From an uncultured bacterium (GTDB taxonomy: Bacteria > Pseudomonadota > Gammaproteobacteria > Burkholderiales > Burkholderiaceae_C): DNA of 39,652 nt. The DNA lies in assembly GCA_903830565.1 (NCBI GenBank), contig CAIKUF010000204.1, positions 1-39,652 of the forward strand. The letters run 5' to 3'. Below, in pieces: positions 15,136-22,783 of this stretch; the stretch's first letter is position 1; every line of letters starts with the position of its first letter. Made by a program: the position numbers and the translations under genes. The notes under the pieces are model-generated. The model saw only the letters and a program-made list of their open reading frames with translations, was not told the origin of the DNA and searched no databases.

Positions 15136-15891
15136 ATGACCGGCGCACTCAGCGGCAAGGTTGCGCTCGTCAGCGGCGCGGCGCGCGGAATCGGGCGTGC
15201 GATTGCACTCAAGCTCGCGCGCGAGGGCTGCGACGTCGCCGCCAACTACTACAACAGCGCCGACGAGGCCGAGGCGCTGTGCGCCGAGATCCGCGCCCTC
15301 GGCCGGCGCGCGGTGGCGATCCAGGCCAGCGTCGGCATTCCGGACAGCGTGGACGAGTTGTTCGTCGAGTTCGGCAAGCACTTCGACCGCGTCGACATCC
15401 TCGTCAGCAACGCCGCCAGCGGCGTCTTGAAGCCGACGACAGAGATGACGCTCAAGCACTGGCGCTGGTGCATGGAGACCAACGCGCTGGCGCTGAACCT
15501 GCTAACCCAGCGCGCACTGCCGCTGATGCGTGCCGGCGGGCGCATCGTGGCCCTGTCCAGCCTTGGCGCATCGCGCGCGATGCCGGGCTACGGCTTCATC
15601 GGCGCCTCGAAGGCGGCGCTCGAAGCACTGGCCCGGGCATTGGCGCAGGAACTCGGCCCGCGCGGCATTCGCGTCAACACCGTCAGCGCCGGCGTCGTCG
15701 ACACCGACGCGCTGGCCTACTTCCCGAATCGCGATCAGGTGCTCGCCAACTATGCCGAGCGCACGCCGGCCGGGCCGGTGCTAACGCCGCAGGACGTGGC
15801 CGGGGCCGTCTACCTGCTGTGCCTGCCCGAAGCCGACATGATCAACGGCCATACGCTGATCGTCGACGGCGGCTTTGCCATCTCGGGTTGA
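15136..15891 (+). CDS. fabL: FabL-like enoyl-[acyl-carrier-protein] reductase (SDR)
   Basis: 251-residue short-chain dehydrogenase. Cofactor loop GAARGIG (14-20), then NAASGVLKP (92-100), HWRWCMETNALAL, SSLGASR (141-147), the active site Y152-x6-K159 (GYGFIGASKAALEAL), DTDALAYFPNR (189-199) and ADMINGHTLIVDGG. Ordinary SDR ketoreductases have Tyr-x3-Lys; the x6 spacing and nearly every block listed match Bacillus subtilis FabL, the NADPH enoyl-ACP reductase III, as I remember it. Role: last reduction of the elongation cycle, making the acyl chain saturated. FabL-type enzymes are known for low triclosan sensitivity. It heads the fatty-acid cluster. The start is supported by AGGA at 15123. The exact substrate chain length is unknown. 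Confidence 0.83.
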   Translation: MTGALSGKVALVSGAARGIGRAIALKLAREGCDVAANYYNSADEAEALCAEIRALGRRAVAIQASVGIPDSVDELFVEFGKHFDRVDILVSNAASGVLKPTTEMTLKHWRWCMETNALALNLLTQRALPLMRAGGRIVALSSLGASRAMPGYGFIGASKAALEALARALAQELGPRGIRVNTVSAGVVDTDALAYFPNRDQVLANYAERTPAGPVLTPQDVAGAVYLLCLPEADMINGHTLIVDGGFAISG

Positions 15892-16041: not shown

Positions 16042-16800
16042 ATGACCAAGGATTCCGGCATCTCGGGCAAGACCGCCATCGTCACCGGCGGCAGCCGCGG
16101 CATCGGGCGCGCGATCGTCGAGCGCCTCGCCGACGACGGCGCCGACGTGACCTTCTTCTACCGCGACAACGCCACCGCGGCCAATGAAGTCGTCGCGGCT
16201 GCGCTGGCCGCGGGGCTCAAGGTCGCGGCCGAGCAAGTCGACATCCGCGATTCCGCCGCCTGCGCCGCCGCGGTGGAACGCATCGCCGACCGCTGCGGGC
16301 GCATCCACATCCTCGTCAACAACGCCGGCATCACGCGCGACAACCCGCTCGCCGCGTTCGACGACGACGACGTCGCCGCGGTGCTGGCGACCAACGTGAC
16401 CGGCGTCTTCAACGTCACGCGCGCGGTCGTCCCTTACATGACCTCGCAGCGCTCGGGCAGCATCGTCAACCTGAGCTCGGTCTCGGGCGACAAGGGCGGC
16501 CGCGGGCAGACCAACTACGCGGCGAGCAAGGGCGCGATCAACGCCTTCACGCGCGCGCTGGCCGTCGAGCTGGCGCCGCGCAAGGTGCGCGTCAACTGCG
16601 TCGCGCCGGGCGTGATCGAGACCGAGATGTCGGCCGACGTGCGTGAGCAGTCGGGCGACGCGGTGCTGGCGCGCATCCTGCTGCGCCGCTACGGCAAGCC
16701 GGAGGAAGTGGCCGATGCGGTATGGTTCCTCGCTTCCGCGCACGCGAGCTACGTGACCGGACAGGTATTCGCCATCGATGGCGGTTTCAAAATGGAGTGA
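16042..16800 (+). CDS. fabG: 3-oxoacyl-[acyl-carrier-protein] reductase (FabG-type SDR)
   Basis: 252 residues. NADPH loop GGSRGIGRAI (16-25), NNAGITRDN (93-101), catalytic Ser146 in NLSSVSG, and Y159-x3-K163 in NYAASKGAI, with the C-terminal VDGG. The NAGITRDN block and the Ser-Tyr-Lys arrangement are characteristic of FabG. Role: reduces 3-oxoacyl-ACP to 3-hydroxyacyl-ACP after each condensation. It lies between the enoyl reductase and the carrier protein (whose ATG is 7 bases after this stop), so it is probably the dedicated ketoreductase of the cluster rather than the housekeeping fabG, which normally sits with fabD/acpP/fabF. Confidence 0.88.
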   Translation: MTKDSGISGKTAIVTGGSRGIGRAIVERLADDGADVTFFYRDNATAANEVVAAALAAGLKVAAEQVDIRDSAACAAAVERIADRCGRIHILVNNAGITRDNPLAAFDDDDVAAVLATNVTGVFNVTRAVVPYMTSQRSGSIVNLSSVSGDKGGRGQTNYAASKGAINAFTRALAVELAPRKVRVNCVAPGVIETEMSADVREQSGDAVLARILLRRYGKPEEVADAVWFLASAHASYVTGQVFAIDGGFKME

Positions 16801-16807
16801 CAGAACA

Positions 16808-17236
16808 ATGACGACGACCCCAATCACCAAGGAAGACATCGCGGCGGTCTTCCCGACCGTTGCCGAGACGATGGCCGACGCGCTCGGCTGCGATCTGGAC
16901 GACATCAAGCTCGACGTCTCGCTGATCGAGGGCCTGGACGCGGAGTCGATCGACTTCCTGGACATGGTGTTCCGTCTGGAACGCGCGTTCAAGATCAAGA
17001 TCCCGCGCGGCAAGATCGTCGAGAACGCGCGCGGCGCCTTGAGCGAAGCCGAGTTCGAGGACAAGGGGCTAGTCACCGACGCGGGCCTGGCGCAACTGCG
17101 CGCCTATCTGAGCGAGATCCCGTCCGAACGCTTCAAGACGCCGATGAAGGTGAAGGACATTCCGCGCCTGTTCACGCCGGAGACCTTCTGCAAGCTCGTC
17201 ATCACCGCGCAGCGCGAGGCCGGCGCGGCGGCGTGA
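16808..17236 (+). CDS. Long acyl carrier protein
   Basis: 142 residues. The core (8-90) has the four-helix ACP pattern, with the phosphopantetheine serine at Ser47 in GLDAESIDFLDMVFRLE, a DSLD variant reading ESID. KIKIPRGKIVENARG follows the usual helix III position. A C-terminal extension of ~50 residues (ERFKTPMKVKDIPRLFTPETFCKLV) goes beyond the ~80 residues of ordinary ACP. Role: carries the growing acyl chain between the enzymes encoded around it; it needs activation by a phosphopantetheinyl transferase, and such a domain is encoded at 21539. Specialised long ACPs occur in very-long-chain or secondary lipid pathways. It is 7 bases downstream of fabG, in the same unit. Confidence 0.85.
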   Translation: MTTTPITKEDIAAVFPTVAETMADALGCDLDDIKLDVSLIEGLDAESIDFLDMVFRLERAFKIKIPRGKIVENARGALSEAEFEDKGLVTDAGLAQLRAYLSEIPSERFKTPMKVKDIPRLFTPETFCKLVITAQREAGAAA

Positions 17237-17503: not shown

Positions 17504-18316
17504 ATGCCCGACCACTTCGCCGCGTTCTCGTTCGTCGACCGCATCACCGCATTCGCTGCCGGCAAGAGCGCGCGCGGCGAGTTCGCGGTGCCGCCTGGCA
17601 TCGCAGCCTTCCCGTCCTGCCTGGTCGCCGAAGCCGTCGGCCAGCTCGCGGCGTGGGTGGCGATGGAGCACATCGCGTTTCGCGGCCGTCCGGTCGCGGC
17701 GCTTGCGAGCGAGACGCGCTTTCACGGCGAGGTGCGGCCGGGAGACACCTTGCATCTCGGCGTCGAGATCGAGCAATGCGACGACGAGGCCGTGGCTTAC
17801 TCGGGCTGGGCGCGCGTGAACGACGCACTCGTGATCGAGTTGCAAGACTGCCTCGGCCCGATGCTGCCCGTCGACGAATTCGACTCGCCGGCGGCGCTGG
17901 CCGAGCGCCTCGTGCTGCTGCGCGGCGCGGGCGCTGCGCCGGGGCGCTTTCACGGTGTCGTCGCACCGCGCATCGTCGCCGGCGAGTGCGTGGCCGGCGA
18001 GTCGGTCTCAGCGACGCTGCACGTGCCGGAAGCAGCGCCCTTCTTCGGCGACCACTTTGCGCGCCGCCCGGTGTTCCCGGCGACGCTGCTGCTCGATGTG
18101 CAGATCGGCCTCGCGATGCAACTCGCGCCCGAAGGCGCCGTGCCCGAGCGCATGACGCACGTGAAGATGCGCTCGTTCATCGCGCCCGGCGATGTGCTGC
18201 AGATCGAAGCCCGGCGCGCGCCGGGCGACGCGAAGCGCATCCTGCTCAGCGCGCGCAGCGAGGGCGGCAAGACCGTCGCCACCGCGCGCCTCGAACTCTC
18301 GACAGAGGAAACCTGA
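17504..18316 (+). CDS. Double-hotdog 3-hydroxyacyl-ACP dehydratase (FabA/FabZ-like)
   Basis: 270 residues with two hotdog units. Unit 1 (~1-125) has the FabZ helix FPSCLVAEAVGQLAAW with Glu43, but Val29 at the position of the catalytic His (14 residues before). Unit 2 (~150-265) has FFGDHFARRPVFPATLLLDVQ with His184 and Asp198, exactly the 14-residue spacing of FabA. In hotdog dehydratases one subunit gives the His and the other the Asp/Glu. Here unit 2 would give His184 and unit 1 Glu43, so one working site per chain is expected, with a dead second site. Role: dehydrates 3-hydroxyacyl-ACP to enoyl-ACP. The stop is one base before the ketosynthase ATG region, so translation is probably coupled. 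The gene begins after the inverted repeat. Confidence 0.78.
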   Translation: MPDHFAAFSFVDRITAFAAGKSARGEFAVPPGIAAFPSCLVAEAVGQLAAWVAMEHIAFRGRPVAALASETRFHGEVRPGDTLHLGVEIEQCDDEAVAYSGWARVNDALVIELQDCLGPMLPVDEFDSPAALAERLVLLRGAGAAPGRFHGVVAPRIVAGECVAGESVSATLHVPEAAPFFGDHFARRPVFPATLLLDVQIGLAMQLAPEGAVPERMTHVKMRSFIAPGDVLQIEARRAPGDAKRILLSARSEGGKTVATARLELSTEET

Positions 18317-18317
18317 G

Positions 18318-19634
18318 ATGACCCAAGGCAAGCGGCGCGTCGCGATCACCGGCGTCGGCATGGTGACGCCCGTCGGCAACGATTTAGAGGCGACCTGGCA
18401 GGCGCTGCTCGCCGGGCGCAGCGGTGGCGGCCAGATCAGCCTCTTCGACGCCAGCGGCTTCCCGGTCCACATCGCGGCCGAGGTGAAAGGTTTTCAGGGC
18501 GACCTGATCGAAGACCGGCGTCTGCTCAAGCACACGACGCGCGCGCACCGCTTCGCGCTCGTCGCCGCCGAGCAGGCGCTGCGCGACGCCGGCATTCGCC
18601 CGACCGAGGCAAGCGCGACGCGCTGGGGCTGCGCAGTCGGCGCCGGCATGATGACCTCGGAGTTCGCCGACCTCACTGCCCTGCACGAGCATTCGGCGGC
18701 CGACGGCGAACTGCACGCCGAGCGCCTGCTCAGCGACCCGTCGGCGAACGACCCGATGGTCTTTTGCCGCAGCAACACCAACGCGGGCCTCGCGCTGCTG
18801 ACGCGGCGCTACGGCATCCGCGGCTATTCGACGGCGGTGCACACCGCGTGCGCGTCGGGCGGGCAGGCGCTGGGAACGGCGCTCAAATTGATCCGCCGCG
18901 GCGCGGTCGATCGCGTGCTCGCGGGCGGCTTCGATTCGATGATCAGCCCGGTGGGTATCTCGGGCTTTTGCCTGCTCAGCGCGCTCTCGCCCGACAACGA
19001 CGCGCCGCAGCAGGCCAGCCGCCCGTTCGATGCCACGCGCAACGGCTTCCTACTCGGCGAAGGCGCGGGCTTCCTGGTCCTCGAGGAGTGGCAGTCGGCG
19101 CGCGATCGCGGCGCGCGCATCTACGCCGAACTCGCGGGCGACGGCAACTCGCTGTCGAGCTACCGCATCACCGATTCACCGCCCGACGGCGACGGGCCGA
19201 TCCAGGCCATGCGCGCCGCGCTCGCCGATGCCGGCGCGACGCCGGCCGACATCGACTACCTGAACGCGCACGGCACCTCGACCGGCATGAACGACCGCAG
19301 CGAGAGCGCGGCGACACGCGCGGTCTACGGCGACGAAGTGGCGCGCCTCAATGTGAGCTCGACCAAGAGCAGCATGGGCCACTTGATCGCCGCCGCGGGC
19401 GCGGTCGAGATTGCCGTCTGCGCGCTCGCGATCCAGCGCGGCGAGATGCCGGTCAACGCCAACTACCGCGTCGCCGACCCCGACTGCAATCTGAACTTCG
19501 TGCTCGGCGAGCCGCGCCGCCAGCGCGTGCGGATGGCGATGTCCAACTCGTTCGGCTTCGGCGGCTCGAACAGTTGCGTCGTCCTGCGCCACCCCGACGA
19601 AGTCGACGGCGAGCGCGCCGTCTCGGCGTCCTGA
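18318..19634 (+). CDS. 3-oxoacyl-[acyl-carrier-protein] synthase, FabF-type, complete active site
   Basis: 438 residues. The thiolase-fold condensing enzyme triad is intact: Cys178 (HTACASGG), His318 (NAHGTSTGMND) and His355 (KSSMGHLIAAAG), with the C-terminal NSFGFGGSN loop. Start RRVAITGVGMVTPVGND is the usual KAS II/FabF beginning. GAGGAA at 18305 precedes the ATG. Role: Claisen condensation of acyl chain with malonyl-ACP, the elongation step. Its stop overlaps an ATG (TGATG) and the next ketosynthase-like gene follows within 20 bases, an arrangement like the ketosynthase pairs of aryl polyene, polyketide and rhizobial XL clusters. It is probably the catalytic member of that pair. Confidence 0.9.
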   Translation: MTQGKRRVAITGVGMVTPVGNDLEATWQALLAGRSGGGQISLFDASGFPVHIAAEVKGFQGDLIEDRRLLKHTTRAHRFALVAAEQALRDAGIRPTEASATRWGCAVGAGMMTSEFADLTALHEHSAADGELHAERLLSDPSANDPMVFCRSNTNAGLALLTRRYGIRGYSTAVHTACASGGQALGTALKLIRRGAVDRVLAGGFDSMISPVGISGFCLLSALSPDNDAPQQASRPFDATRNGFLLGEGAGFLVLEEWQSARDRGARIYAELAGDGNSLSSYRITDSPPDGDGPIQAMRAALADAGATPADIDYLNAHGTSTGMNDRSESAATRAVYGDEVARLNVSSTKSSMGHLIAAAGAVEIAVCALAIQRGEMPVNANYRVADPDCNLNFVLGEPRRQRVRMAMSNSFGFGGSNSCVVLRHPDEVDGERAVSAS

Positions 19635-19645
19635 TGCGAGCCACT

Positions 19646-19649
19646 GGAG
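19646..19649 (+). promoter_or_regulatory. Ribosome binding site deciding the second ketosynthase start
   Basis: GGAG lies 5 bases before ATG 19655. That favours this start over ATG 19634, which overlaps the stop of the preceding gene and has no ribosome site in the right place. Confidence 0.6.
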
Positions 19650-19654
19650 CAAGC

Positions 19655-20932
19655 ATGGCATCCCGCAACCGAATCTTCGTCACCGGCAGCGGCGCCGTCT
19701 GCGCCGCCGGCATGGACCCGCAAACCATCCTCGCGGCGGTGCTCGCCGGGCAAAGCGCCATCGGCCCGATCCGGCAGTGGGACACCACCGGCTGGCCGAT
19801 GCGTGATGCCGGCGAGGTGGCGGGCCTCAACCCGCGCGCGCTGGTCGAAGACCGCAAGCTGCACAAGCTGATCCGCCGCACCGATCTCTTCGGCCTGCAC
19901 GCCGCCGGGCGCGCGATCGATGGCTCGGGCCTGCTCGCCCACCGCGAGACTCAGGACGCAGCAGCAGCAGCCATCACCAGCGACCGCAGCGGCGTCTACG
20001 TCGGCTCGGGCGGCGGAAACTACCAGAACCAGTACGACTATCTACCGCTTCTGACCGAGTCGCACGGCGACCTGCAGGCCTTTGGGCGCCAGCTTCTCGA
20101 CACGGTGAACCCGATGTGGCTGCTGCGCACGCTGCCCAACAACGTGCTTGGCCATATCGGCATCCGCCACGGATTGAAGGGCCCGAACGCCTGCATCACC
20201 AACCACAGCGTCGGCGGGACGATGGCGGTCATCGAAGCGCTGGAGGCGCTGCGCCACGGCGAAGCCGACCGTGCGGTGGCGGTAGGCCACGACGCGCCCA
20301 TCGAGCCGCAGATGCTGCTCTACTACCACGGCGTCGGCCTGCTCGCGAGCGAGGCGCTGCGCCCCTTCGACGCCCGCCACGACGGCAGCCTGTTCGGCGA
20401 AGGCGCGGGCGCGCTGATGCTCGAAACAGAAGCCTCGGCCACTGCGCGCGGTGCGAGCGTGATCGGCGAGGTGCTTGGCGGCGGCGTCGCTTGCGAAGCC
20501 GAGGGCCTGTTCACGATCCGCGACGATGGCGACGGCGTCGCCCGCGCGATCGAGCAGGCGCTCGCGGACGCAAACCTGCGCCCGCAGGACGTCGGCATGA
20601 TCGTCGCCCATGGCAATGGAACGCCGCAGTCCGACGCGTCGGAAGCCGCTGCGCTGCGCCAAGTCTTCGGCGCCGCGATGCCACCGGTGACGGGCTTCAA
20701 GTGGGCCTTCGGCCACCTGATCGCTGCTGCCGGCATCCTCGACGCGTTGCTCGCACTGGGCGCGCTGAAGCAAGGCGTGGTGCCCGGCATCGCCACACTC
20801 GATCGAATCGCTCCCGACTGCGAAGGAATTGCACTGTCTGCAACACTCCGGGCACCGCGCAGCGACGTCGGGCTCATCGTCTGCCGCGGCTTCGCGGGGA
20901 TGAACGCGGCCCTGCTGCTGCGCGCCCTGTGA
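19655..20932 (+). CDS. Ketosynthase-like protein with Ser in place of the active-site Cys
   Basis: 425 residues from ATG 19655 (432 from ATG 19634). It keeps the FabF fold blocks: FVTGSGAVCAAGMDP, GEGAGALMLE, His319 (VAHGNGTPQSD), Lys349 and His354 (KWAFGHLIAAAG), and GFAGMNAAL at the end. At the nucleophile elbow, GPNACITNHSVGG aligns without gaps to FabF GPSISIATACTSG, which puts Ser185 where Cys belongs. Chain length factors of type II polyketide synthases and the partner ketosynthase of aryl polyene systems also lack the Cys. My inference is that it pairs with the preceding ketosynthase and shapes chain length, or acts as a decarboxylase for starter formation. Cys180 nearby is at the wrong position to replace it. 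Confidence 0.82.
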   Translation: MASRNRIFVTGSGAVCAAGMDPQTILAAVLAGQSAIGPIRQWDTTGWPMRDAGEVAGLNPRALVEDRKLHKLIRRTDLFGLHAAGRAIDGSGLLAHRETQDAAAAAITSDRSGVYVGSGGGNYQNQYDYLPLLTESHGDLQAFGRQLLDTVNPMWLLRTLPNNVLGHIGIRHGLKGPNACITNHSVGGTMAVIEALEALRHGEADRAVAVGHDAPIEPQMLLYYHGVGLLASEALRPFDARHDGSLFGEGAGALMLETEASATARGASVIGEVLGGGVACEAEGLFTIRDDGDGVARAIEQALADANLRPQDVGMIVAHGNGTPQSDASEAAALRQVFGAAMPPVTGFKWAFGHLIAAAGILDALLALGALKQGVVPGIATLDRIAPDCEGIALSATLRAPRSDVGLIVCRGFAGMNAALLLRAL

Positions 20933-20955: not shown

Positions 20956-21507
20956 ATGCAAGCACTGAGCCAGTCCCGCCGAATTTCTGTCGCTGCCCTG
21001 CTCGTCGCACTGCTCGTGCCAGCTGGCGCATTCGCGGCGGACCGTAGCGCACTCACCATCGAGGCGCGCAATGCGTTGCAGAGACTCACGTCGACCGTCC
21101 CCGCGGCGAAGGCGCTTTCCGGCAGGGCGGTTGCCGTGGTCGTCTTTCCCAAGGTGACCAAGGCCGGCCTGGGCTTCGGCGGCCAGTACGGCGATGGCGT
21201 GCTCTTCAAGGGCGGCAAACCCGTCGCCTACTACAACACCAGCGGCGCGTCGTTCGGCCTGCAGGCAGGTGCGCAAACCTACGGCTACGCGATGTTCCTG
21301 ATGAACGAACAGGCGGTCGCGGCGCTCGGGGCGAACGAAGGCTTCGAGGTCGGCGTCGGTCCGAGCGTGGTCGTCGTCGACCAGGGCATGGCCAAGACCG
21401 TGACCACGACCACGGCCACGAACGACATCTACGCTTTCATCTTCGGCCAGAAGGGCCTGATGGCCGGCGTGGGTGTGCAGGGCAACAAGATCACGCGACT
21501 GGATTGA
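20956..21507 (+). CDS. Secreted SYLF (Ysc84) domain lipid-binding protein
   Basis: 183 residues. A signal peptide is clear: basic MQALSQSRR, hydrophobic ISVAALLVALLVPAG, cleavage at AFA-AD (~residue 28). The mature part has the SYLF pattern: AKALSGRAVAVVVFPKVTKAGLGFGGQYGDGVLF, YYNTSGASFGLQAGAQTYGYAMFLMN and GLMAGVGVQGNKI. Eukaryotic SYLF domains bind phosphoinositides and other lipids. Bacterial members are periplasmic or lipoprotein forms of unsettled role; this one has no lipobox Cys. AAAGGA (20943-20948) is the ribosome site. It lies between the second ketosynthase and the AcpS-acyltransferase gene, so a role in handling or placing the lipid product in the periplasm is plausible but unproven. 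Confidence 0.88.
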   Translation: MQALSQSRRISVAALLVALLVPAGAFAADRSALTIEARNALQRLTSTVPAAKALSGRAVAVVVFPKVTKAGLGFGGQYGDGVLFKGGKPVAYYNTSGASFGLQAGAQTYGYAMFLMNEQAVAALGANEGFEVGVGPSVVVVDQGMAKTVTTTTATNDIYAFIFGQKGLMAGVGVQGNKITRLD

Positions 21508-21538: not shown

Positions 21539-22783
21539 ATGACCGAAGCGCCAGCGCCCACCCCCGGGCGCTGCGGCATCGACAGCGTCGAGATCGCGCG
21601 CATCGAGCGCCTGCTGCGCGAGACGCCTGCCGACGGATTGCTGCAGTTCTTCAGCGCGCAGGAGCTCGAGGACAGCGGCGACGGCCCCGGCCGCGCGGCC
21701 AGCCTGGCAGCGCGCTTCGCGGCCAAGGAGGCCTGCGTCAAGCTCTTCCCGCGCGAGGCCGCGCTGGGCCAGATCGCGCCCGGCGATTTTTCGGTCGCGC
21801 GTGACAGTTACGGCGCGCCGCAACTCGTCTGCAACGCGAACGCGCAGTACGTGCTCGACCGCCATCGCATCGCTGCGATCAAGCTTTCGCTGACGCATGA
21901 CCGCGTCAGCGCATCGGCCATCGCGCTGGCCGAGCCGGCACGGGCGCCCATCTCGCGCGCCGGGCGCTTCATCTTCCGTTTCCTGCCGCTGCGGCGCGAG
22001 GTCGTGATGGCCAACCTGAGGCGCGTCTACGGCGAGACTGTGGACGAGGCCGAGATCGAGCGCCTGACCGCTGCGCACTACGGCCACCTGTGGCGCCTGC
22101 TGGTCGAGTTCGTGCGCTTTCGCTGGCTCAGCGCGGCGCAGAAGACGGCGCTGGTGCGCGTCGAGGGTGTCGCCAACTTCCTCGCCGCGCGCGACCAGGG
22201 CAAGGGCATCCTGATCCTCACCGGGCATTTCGGCAACTGGGAGGTCTCGACGACCGCCGGCATCGCCCAGTTCCCCGAGATGCGCGGCAAGTTCCACTTC
22301 GTTCGGCGGCCGATCAAGCCGCAGTGGCTGGACCGCCTGGTCACGCGCCGCTTCAACCGGGCGGGCTTCGGTGTCTTCTCCAAGCGCGACTCGCTGGACG
22401 CGATGCTCAAAGCCCTGGCCGGGGGCCATGGCGTCGTGCTGCCCTTCGACCAGCACGCCGGGCCGCCCGACGGCATCGCAGTCGACTTTCTCGGCCAGCC
22501 GGCGTGGACCTTCAAGAGCCTGGCCATCATCGCCCTCTCGACCGGCGCGCCAGTGCTGCCGGCGTCGAGCTGGCGGGAAGCCGATGGCCGCCACGTGATG
22601 CGCTTCGAGAAACCGCTCGCGCCCATCGAGAGCGAGAGCACGAGCGAAGCACTCCGCCTCAACACGCGCGCCTACAACCAGGCGCTGGAACGCCTTGTCG
22701 TGCGCCACCCGGAACAGTGGTGGTGGGTGCACCGGCGCTGGAAGCACGTCGAGGTCAAGCGCAAGCGGCAACCTGCAGCCTAA
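21539..22783 (+). CDS. Fusion of AcpS-type phosphopantetheinyl transferase and LpxL-type acyltransferase
   Basis: 414 residues in one uninterrupted frame from ATG 21539. Residues 10-132 form a complete AcpS domain: CGIDSVEIARIERL with Asp15 as metal ligand, SLAARFAAKEACVKLF with Glu64, and the closing strand IKLSLTHDRVSASAIAL. Residues ~138-405 are an LpxL/HtrB-family acyltransferase: LRREVVMANLRRVYGE, the HxxxxE motif GHFGNWE (His230, Glu235), LPFDQHAGPPDG, and WWWVHRRWK near the end. The N-terminal membrane helix usual in LpxL is missing; AcpS occupies its place. Role by family: charging the ACP with phosphopantetheine and moving an acyl chain from ACP to a glycolipid such as lipid A. It closes the cluster and stops 14 bases from the convergent histidine kinase gene. 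Confidence 0.88.
   Translation: MTEAPAPTPGRCGIDSVEIARIERLLRETPADGLLQFFSAQELEDSGDGPGRAASLAARFAAKEACVKLFPREAALGQIAPGDFSVARDSYGAPQLVCNANAQYVLDRHRIAAIKLSLTHDRVSASAIALAEPARAPISRAGRFIFRFLPLRREVVMANLRRVYGETVDEAEIERLTAAHYGHLWRLLVEFVRFRWLSAAQKTALVRVEGVANFLAARDQGKGILILTGHFGNWEVSTTAGIAQFPEMRGKFHFVRRPIKPQWLDRLVTRRFNRAGFGVFSKRDSLDAMLKALAGGHGVVLPFDQHAGPPDGIAVDFLGQPAWTFKSLAIIALSTGAPVLPASSWREADGRHVMRFEKPLAPIESESTSEALRLNTRAYNQALERLVVRHPEQWWWVHRRWKHVEVKRKRQPAA

Follow-up and report, generated by a model that had tools for sequence, protein, structure and literature searches.

The last gene of a seven-gene operon in an uncultured member of the Burkholderiaceae_C encodes an AcpS-type phosphopantetheinyl transferase and an LpxL-type acyltransferase as a single protein. 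The gene occupies positions 21539-22783 on the forward strand of the 39,652-nucleotide stretch of DNA analysed here (hereafter the window) and runs uninterrupted from ATG to stop over 414 amino acids. The attachment of AcpS to the terminal transferase of a fatty-acid synthase with a dedicated acyl carrier protein (ACP) appears to be new; such a synthase combined with an LpxL-type transferase is itself known. Judged by titles and the starts of abstracts, we found no description of an AcpS-LpxL-type fusion in the open-access literature, in keeping with an earlier note on this DNA, which knew of no described protein with such a layout. Our preferred reading, to which we give an even chance, is a dedicated type II fatty-acid synthase whose ACP is primed by the fusion; the fusion would then esterify the chain to a lipid of the outer membrane, with lipid A the likeliest acceptor.

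Two enzymes in one reading frame

Two Pfam domains stand above their cut-offs in the protein: ACPS (PF01648) at residues 12-101 (37.2 bits, cut-off 25) and Lip_A_acyltrans (PF03279) at residues 137-402 (138.5 bits, cut-off 22.3). The domain search that the earlier note had proposed thus finds both families in one 414-residue frame, and its observation of the fusion as one protein is confirmed. The AcpS-type half (approximately residues 8-134; 21539-21940, forward strand) passes the broader NCBIfam model TIGR00556 (52.4 bits, cut-off 45.35) and lies below the cut-off of the curated AcpS equivalog TIGR00516 (42 versus 59.8 bits). The LpxL-type half (21947-22744, same strand) carries an HX4E motif, contains GHFGNWE as the earlier note had read it, and has no N-terminal membrane helix; on the LpxL-type NCBIfam models the fusion stays below every cut-off among the 25 of 27 families listed, its best score there being 126.8 bits on NF006270 (cut-off 248). 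An AF2 model of the fusion, built on 46 aligned sequences, reaches a pLDDT of 88.5 and a pTM of 0.85, and VIA-align of this model matches residues 8-133 to AcpS structures (Z up to 17.5), residues 151-404 to PatA (5f2t, Z 27.2) and residues 147-406 to LpxM (5kn7, Z 26.2). With the same model, each of the 50 Foldseek matches listed, out of 832, spans one half only.

To follow the protein across genomes, we used the best 80 of 142 relatives from a scan of named species genomes. The two search patterns, one per half, favour close relatives, so these 80 loci are no measure of how often the fusion splits. Five of the 80 fusion frames reach a contig end (L044, L115, L116, L119 and L120). The remaining 75 are uncut and are all single frames of at least 400 amino acids, with the alignment covering both halves in 74 of them; the exception is L118, the AcpS half of which is degenerate. 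The window comes from a fragmented assembly (339 contigs), which could raise the suspicion of an assembly or frameshift artefact joining two genes; because the 75 uncut loci come from many assemblies, cultured isolates included, and are single frames without exception, that reading is refuted and its probability is next to nil. Two genes with a stop between them, the arrangement that the earlier note said would undo its claim, were not seen, either in these loci or in the unfused relatives described below.

By deposited names, the loci belong to betaproteobacteria, gammaproteobacterial bins and Verrucomicrobia, and the cultured hosts are Zwartia panacis, Z. vadi, Z. hollandica (operon L098) and Jezberella montanilacus. 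The names Bordetella parapertussis and Akkermansia muciniphila, under which some metagenome bins (L045, L076, L081, L084, L097 and L108) are deposited, may be wrong. In a separate search of 40 genomes, the full fusion was present in five, the window's own included (G000, G002, G003, G004 and G033), and no full fusion was found in G001, a genome of the same genus with 87% completeness; judged by their length, the contigs of G003, G004, G002 and G033 are the same as L042, L043, L044 and L064, respectively. A plasmid search returned 19 records matching the fusion, none of which spans 80% of the query, and the 10 of these that were listed match the acyltransferase half only.

The two metal ligands singled out in the earlier note, Asp15 and Glu64, are both present and are kept in 77 of the 77 loci aligned at these positions (of 80, the unaligned ones at Asp15 being two contig-cut loci and L118). 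Lys68 is kept in 77 of 78 aligned loci, and His230 and Glu235 of the acyltransferase half in 80 of 80. Having the AcpS fold, the metal ligands and the PF01648 match, the first half is predicted to be catalytic. Such catalysis is not universal, since the AcpS half is degenerate, albeit partly retained, in two fusions: L168 (9215-10459; genome G436) has Glu64 replaced by Arg, and L118 (9806-11047) has lost catalytic residues of this half. An inactive AcpS half, which the earlier note had counted as evidence against its idea, is therefore predicted for L168 and L118, while the residues kept in all 77 aligned loci speak for activity.

The fusion closes a probable fatty-acid synthase operon

All 58 loci that reach SDR1 show one gene order on one strand: SDR1, SDR2, ACP, dehydratase, KS1, KS2 and, as the last gene, the fusion. 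In 21 of the 22 loci not reaching SDR1, recognised genes begin less than 600 bases into the locus, and L121 has no ACP, dehydratase or SDR match in the 4.4 kb upstream of KS1. In the window, all of these genes lie on the forward strand. SDR1 (15136-15891) is a FabL-type enoyl-ACP reductase: it scores 343 bits on the FabL equivalog NF005975 (cut-off 328), and its best sequence match in the PDB is the enoyl-ACP reductase 3oic (216 bits; next match 145), so that the product of the operon should be reduced. SDR2 (16042-16800), a FabG-like ketoreductase matching adh_short_C2 and adh_short, has Tyr159 and Lys163 in 59 of 59 loci. The ACP gene (16808-17236) is followed by a two-domain (double-hotdog) 3-hydroxyacyl-ACP dehydratase (17504-18316), FabA-like in two stretches and with His184 in 68 of 68 loci, which also matches 4HBT below the cut-off.

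The ketosynthase KS1 (18318-19634) has the active-site Cys178 in 70 of 70 aligned loci and His318 and His355 in 71 of 71; its active site is complete. KS2 (19634-20932), a ketosynthase-like partner by profile matches, has Ser in place of the nucleophilic Cys. Across the 74 aligned loci, this position is Ser, Thr, Ala or Ile in 65 and Cys in nine. The Cys loci (L061, L085, L089, L107, L108, L111, L112, L113 and L114) are all Verrucomicrobia by deposited name; the KS2 of L121, also from Verrucomicrobia, has Ile, and the other 64 aligned non-Cys loci have Ser, Thr or Ala. In the window, KS2 is separated from the fusion by a gene for a SYLF (Ysc84) protein (20956-21507; PF04366, 37.6 bits) with a signal-like N terminus. 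This insert is shared only with the congener L042 (the contig of G003), one of 80 loci at E 1e-8, and the gene is probably not part of the operon core. The 40 largest clusters in the flanks of the 80 loci, viewed by eye, comprise lineage-specific genes and shadow frames and offer no clear lead.

From its set of enzymes, the operon might alternatively be a type II polyketide cluster, of the aryl-polyene-like kind or another. A ketosynthase with a ketosynthase-like partner, a ketoreductase, a dehydratase, an ACP and a membrane acyltransferase are common to aryl polyene clusters, as described in an excerpt of PMC8253772; according to the same excerpt, the E. coli cluster differs from this operon in having neither an enoyl reductase nor a phosphopantetheinyl transferase. 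The FabL-type reductase, which passes its curated cut-off, would saturate a polyene, and a scan of ten window proteins gave no match above cut-off to an aryl starter ligase, a methyltransferase, a thioesterase or an RND or Lol-like transporter. In addition, the operon carrier Z. hollandica (L098) is described as unpigmented in an excerpt of PMC10535154. Taken with these points, a polyene or other polyketide product is very unlikely, and a fatty-acid synthase remains our preferred reading.

The carrier protein and its likeness to AcpXL

The ACP that the earlier note had placed at 16808 is genuine: it comprises 142 amino acids with a C-terminal extension, matches the PP-binding domain at 34 bits (cut-off 20.8) and has its attachment serine, Ser47, in 60 of 60 loci. 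Its AF2 model (pLDDT 83.6) has extra helices between residues 80 and 141. This ACP and the fusion are present in the same six of 399 same-order genomes. As the fusion shares its operon and its host genomes with one dedicated ACP, its two halves are most naturally read as activating and unloading a single carrier. The proposal of the earlier note that the two activities are tied to one carrier holds up in this form, as suggested by the conserved, unbroken fusion, the two catalytic residue sets and the ACP alongside.

The closest described arrangement is the rhizobial system for very-long-chain acylation of lipid A, for which an excerpt of PMC11901934 gives the gene order acpXL-fabZXL-fabF2XL-fabF1XL-adhXL-lpxXL. 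Using the acpXL-lpxXL cluster of Sinorhizobium meliloti as a reference (L133, CP090106.1; a 3.7-Mb record named pSymB, a label that may be wrong), we find that both systems comprise a dedicated ACP, a dehydratase, two ketosynthase genes and a last-placed LpxL-type acyltransferase, all in one direction, and that the order ACP, dehydratase, KS, KS, acyltransferase is common to the reference and to the 58 loci reaching SDR1. Both ACPs have S-[IL]-D-F-L-D around the attachment serine, and the acyltransferases are 29% identical over 254 residues. By contrast, the present operon additionally encodes an enoyl reductase of the FabL type and a ketoreductase and has no Zn-dehydrogenase; its ACP is longer, and its acyltransferase is anchorless and joined to AcpS. 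The acyltransferases of the two systems fall into separate clades, and the ACP and KS1 of the present operon stay below curated cut-offs reached by the S. meliloti genes. KS1 reaches 327.7 of 629 bits on NF005076 and 74.1 of 320 on NF005084, both below cut-off, and KS2 reaches 135 and 56.1, respectively; the S. meliloti control genes score 770 and 618.

The tests of kinship between the two carriers are mixed. On the NCBIfam model NF005079, named 'acyl carrier protein' and taken by us to be the AcpXL equivalog, the ACP scores 38.7 bits, below the cut-off of 83 (S. meliloti control, 189.5), and slightly higher, at 44.5, on a general ACP model. AcpXL comes third in a PDB sequence search with the ACP, tied with ordinary ACPs, and is likewise tied with ordinary ACPs in VIA-align. 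In Foldseek, the AcpXL-type structures 3lmo and 2kw2 rank first and second at E 2-3e-3, no match falling below 0.001. Among the best matches of the ACP profile A4 outside the class, three of the three members of family f256 that were fetched lie in AcpXL-type clusters, and a fourth match, fetched from another family, is an ACP adjoining a ketosynthase only. We conclude that the ACP has a likeness to AcpXL, not membership.

Other known systems share parts of the layout. LpxL/LpxM and mycobacterial PatA have in common with the second half PF03279, the HX4E motif and the fold seen in PatA 5f2t and LpxM 5kn7; they differ from it in that the present protein has no N-terminal membrane helix, bears an N-terminal AcpS and belongs to a clade of its own. 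Fungal type I fatty-acid synthases similarly carry an AcpS-like domain on the chain of a fatty-acid enzyme, with a fold match to the first half, but their phosphopantetheinyl transferase domain ends the alpha chain of a megasynthase, whereas here it is joined to the terminal acyltransferase, in a system of dissociated enzymes.

Unfused relatives and the absent membrane anchor

A search with the ACP, as opposed to the fusion, across 369 genomes of the class brought out eight genomes besides the window's own with the long ACP at E ~5e-34 or better; ten further matches are weaker. One of the eight, G436, has the fusion with Glu64 replaced by Arg. In four others (G450, G462, G602 and G708), the operon encodes an unfused acyltransferase of ~285 amino acids; no AcpS was found in the operon of these four, and no SDR2 match in the fetched stretch of the last three. 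The sequences of G445 and G521 end before the acyltransferase, and the ACP of G658 lies outside such an operon. In the latter genome, this long ACP of the same kind (L175, 6175-6537) is situated between an HsdM-type methylase gene and aminotransferase/transketolase genes.

The earlier note had rightly seen that the LpxL half has no N-terminal membrane helix: the PF03279 match begins at profile position 37, meaning that the N-terminal part of the family is absent, and the top 19-residue hydropathy within the first 100 residues of the fusion is 0.75, compared with at least 1.65 in eight of ten standard relatives, 0.81 and 1.39 in the remaining two and 1.25 in the host's own LpxL. It had also spoken of a loss of the anchor; taken as a result of the fusion, this is not supported: the unfused acyltransferases of G450, G462, G602 and G708, encoded in the same operon, equally have no such helix, so the anchor was not lost through fusion.

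The acyltransferase tree, which includes one long row (L127) and has a bootstrap that has not settled, groups fused and unfused forms in a single clade (99/99) and separates them from LpxL and the LpxXL of rhizobia. The KS1 tree, in which the outgroup branches are long, places the fused rows on one side of a branch with support of 66/99; a single origin of the fusion, judged from this tree, is neither shown nor rejected.

Other transferases in the host genomes

The genome of the window encodes a separate AcpS, a HetI/Sfp-like enzyme and two further PF03279 proteins. More generally, 15 genomes whose fusion is catalytically complete were tested, and each holds at least one further PF01648 protein, which makes the fusion an extra enzyme, dedicated by its place in the operon. 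The fused half thus resembles AcpS holo-ACP synthases in its fold, metal ligands, PF01648 match and passing of TIGR00556, and differs from them in being joined to another enzyme, in falling below TIGR00516 and in its coexistence with a separate PF01648 enzyme in 15 of 15 genomes. Nine of the 15 were typed: in six, a separate AcpS exceeds the cut-off of TIGR00516, and three have only a HetI/Sfp-like enzyme as other phosphopantetheinyl transferase. In G340, G419 and G1051, which besides the fusion have only a HetI/Sfp-like PF01648 match, the fusion may be the cell's only AcpS-type enzyme. The five genomes without a complete fused AcpS (G436, G450, G462, G602 and G708) have one PF01648 match each, a protein that best fits the HetI model, below its cut-off. 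This pattern across fused and unfused genomes is suggestive and is not independent of kinship.

These other enzymes raise the question of whether the AcpS half serves mainly as a docking and oligomerising scaffold that keeps the ACP close to the acyltransferase, its transferase activity being dispensable or vestigial. Such a role would fit the non-catalytic remnants kept in L168 and L118, the additional PF01648 protein in all 15 genomes and the shortfall on TIGR00516. It is difficult to reconcile with Asp15 and Glu64 in 77 of 77 and Lys68 in 77 of 78 aligned loci, a constancy hard to explain without catalysis, and the only PF01648 match in the genome of L168 is a longer HetI/Sfp-like enzyme. 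We therefore consider a scaffold role improbable and retain a catalytic AcpS half in the preferred reading.

Regarding the acceptor, LpxC is present in 20 of 20 operon-bearing genomes tested, and three of them (G462, G708 and G1057) yielded no PF03279 protein besides the acyltransferase of the operon, a result in favour of lipid A. In the same direction, G462 has a match to Legionella_OMP (313 bits), and excerpts of PMC5613085 and PMC11901934 count Legionella among the bacteria whose lipid A bears very long chains. The other 17 genomes have further PF03279 proteins that could serve lipid A, and this would suit the same synthase and dual enzyme acting on another membrane lipid (a glycolipid, aminolipid or phospholipid), as for PatA. 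Mycobacterial PatA acylates a mannoside, and the membrane-associated PatA is the closest fold to the second half, with LpxM near; the acyltransferase clade separate from LpxL and LpxXL likewise favours this alternative. For Zwartia vadi, an excerpt of PMC10535154 lists an aminolipid and further lipids, all unidentified. Against a different lipid stand the three LpxC-positive genomes without another PF03279 protein and the seven-gene core, which has no glycosyltransferase or headgroup gene, the flanks having been judged by clusters. An acceptor other than lipid A is, in our estimate, possible rather than probable, and lipid A is kept as the acceptor in the preferred reading.

Several further observations were made in these genomes. 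In G340 (L206, 7036-8706), G419 (contig C50) and G1051 (contig C43), none of which yielded a separate AcpS-type enzyme, a separate LpxL gene adjoins and diverges from a HetI/Sfp-like transferase gene. This neighbourhood in G340 was considered as a possible polyene cluster; the ten frames scanned show no sign of one. Across two contigs, C326 and C233 (L186 and L187), the window's own genome has two more ketosynthase genes, an SDR and a DUF3261 gene and, on the other of the two contigs, a HetI/Sfp-like transferase gene; together these may be pieces of an aryl-polyene-type cluster.

A proposed cycle for one carrier

Under the preferred reading, the N-terminal half of the fusion would attach 4'-phosphopantetheine to the ACP of the operon, the operon synthase would build a reduced, probably long and perhaps very long acyl chain on this extended carrier, and the C-terminal half would take the finished chain from the same ACP and esterify it to a lipid of the outer membrane, lipid A being the likeliest. 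The acyl transfer would occur at the membrane surface without a transmembrane anchor. AcpS enzymes are homotrimers whose active sites lie at the subunit interfaces; if the fusion likewise trimerised via its first half, three acyltransferases would be grouped round one ACP-docking core. Concerning chain length, the fatty-acid profiles of Zwartia isolates in an excerpt of PMC10535154 give no unusual chain, although MIDI would hardly show C26 or longer.

A more specific version can be advanced only tentatively: a trimeric AcpS core may prime the ACP, dock it again once loaded and feed three anchorless acyltransferase sites at the membrane surface. If this were true, one protein would control both ends of the carrier's cycle, and the special fatty acid would be kept out of the general pool. 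Overall, the interpretation put forward in the earlier note is partly supported.

If the proposed function holds, freshwater betaproteobacteria and Verrucomicrobia should acylate a lipid of their outer membrane in a special way; to our knowledge, no such acylation is known in either. The family would also provide a clean case for studying why an enzyme that primes a carrier is tied to the enzyme that unloads it, with natural controls at hand in operons in which AcpS was not found (G450, G462, G602 and G708), is degenerate (L168 and L118) or is intact. The cultured Zwartia and Jezberella hosts make the prediction testable.
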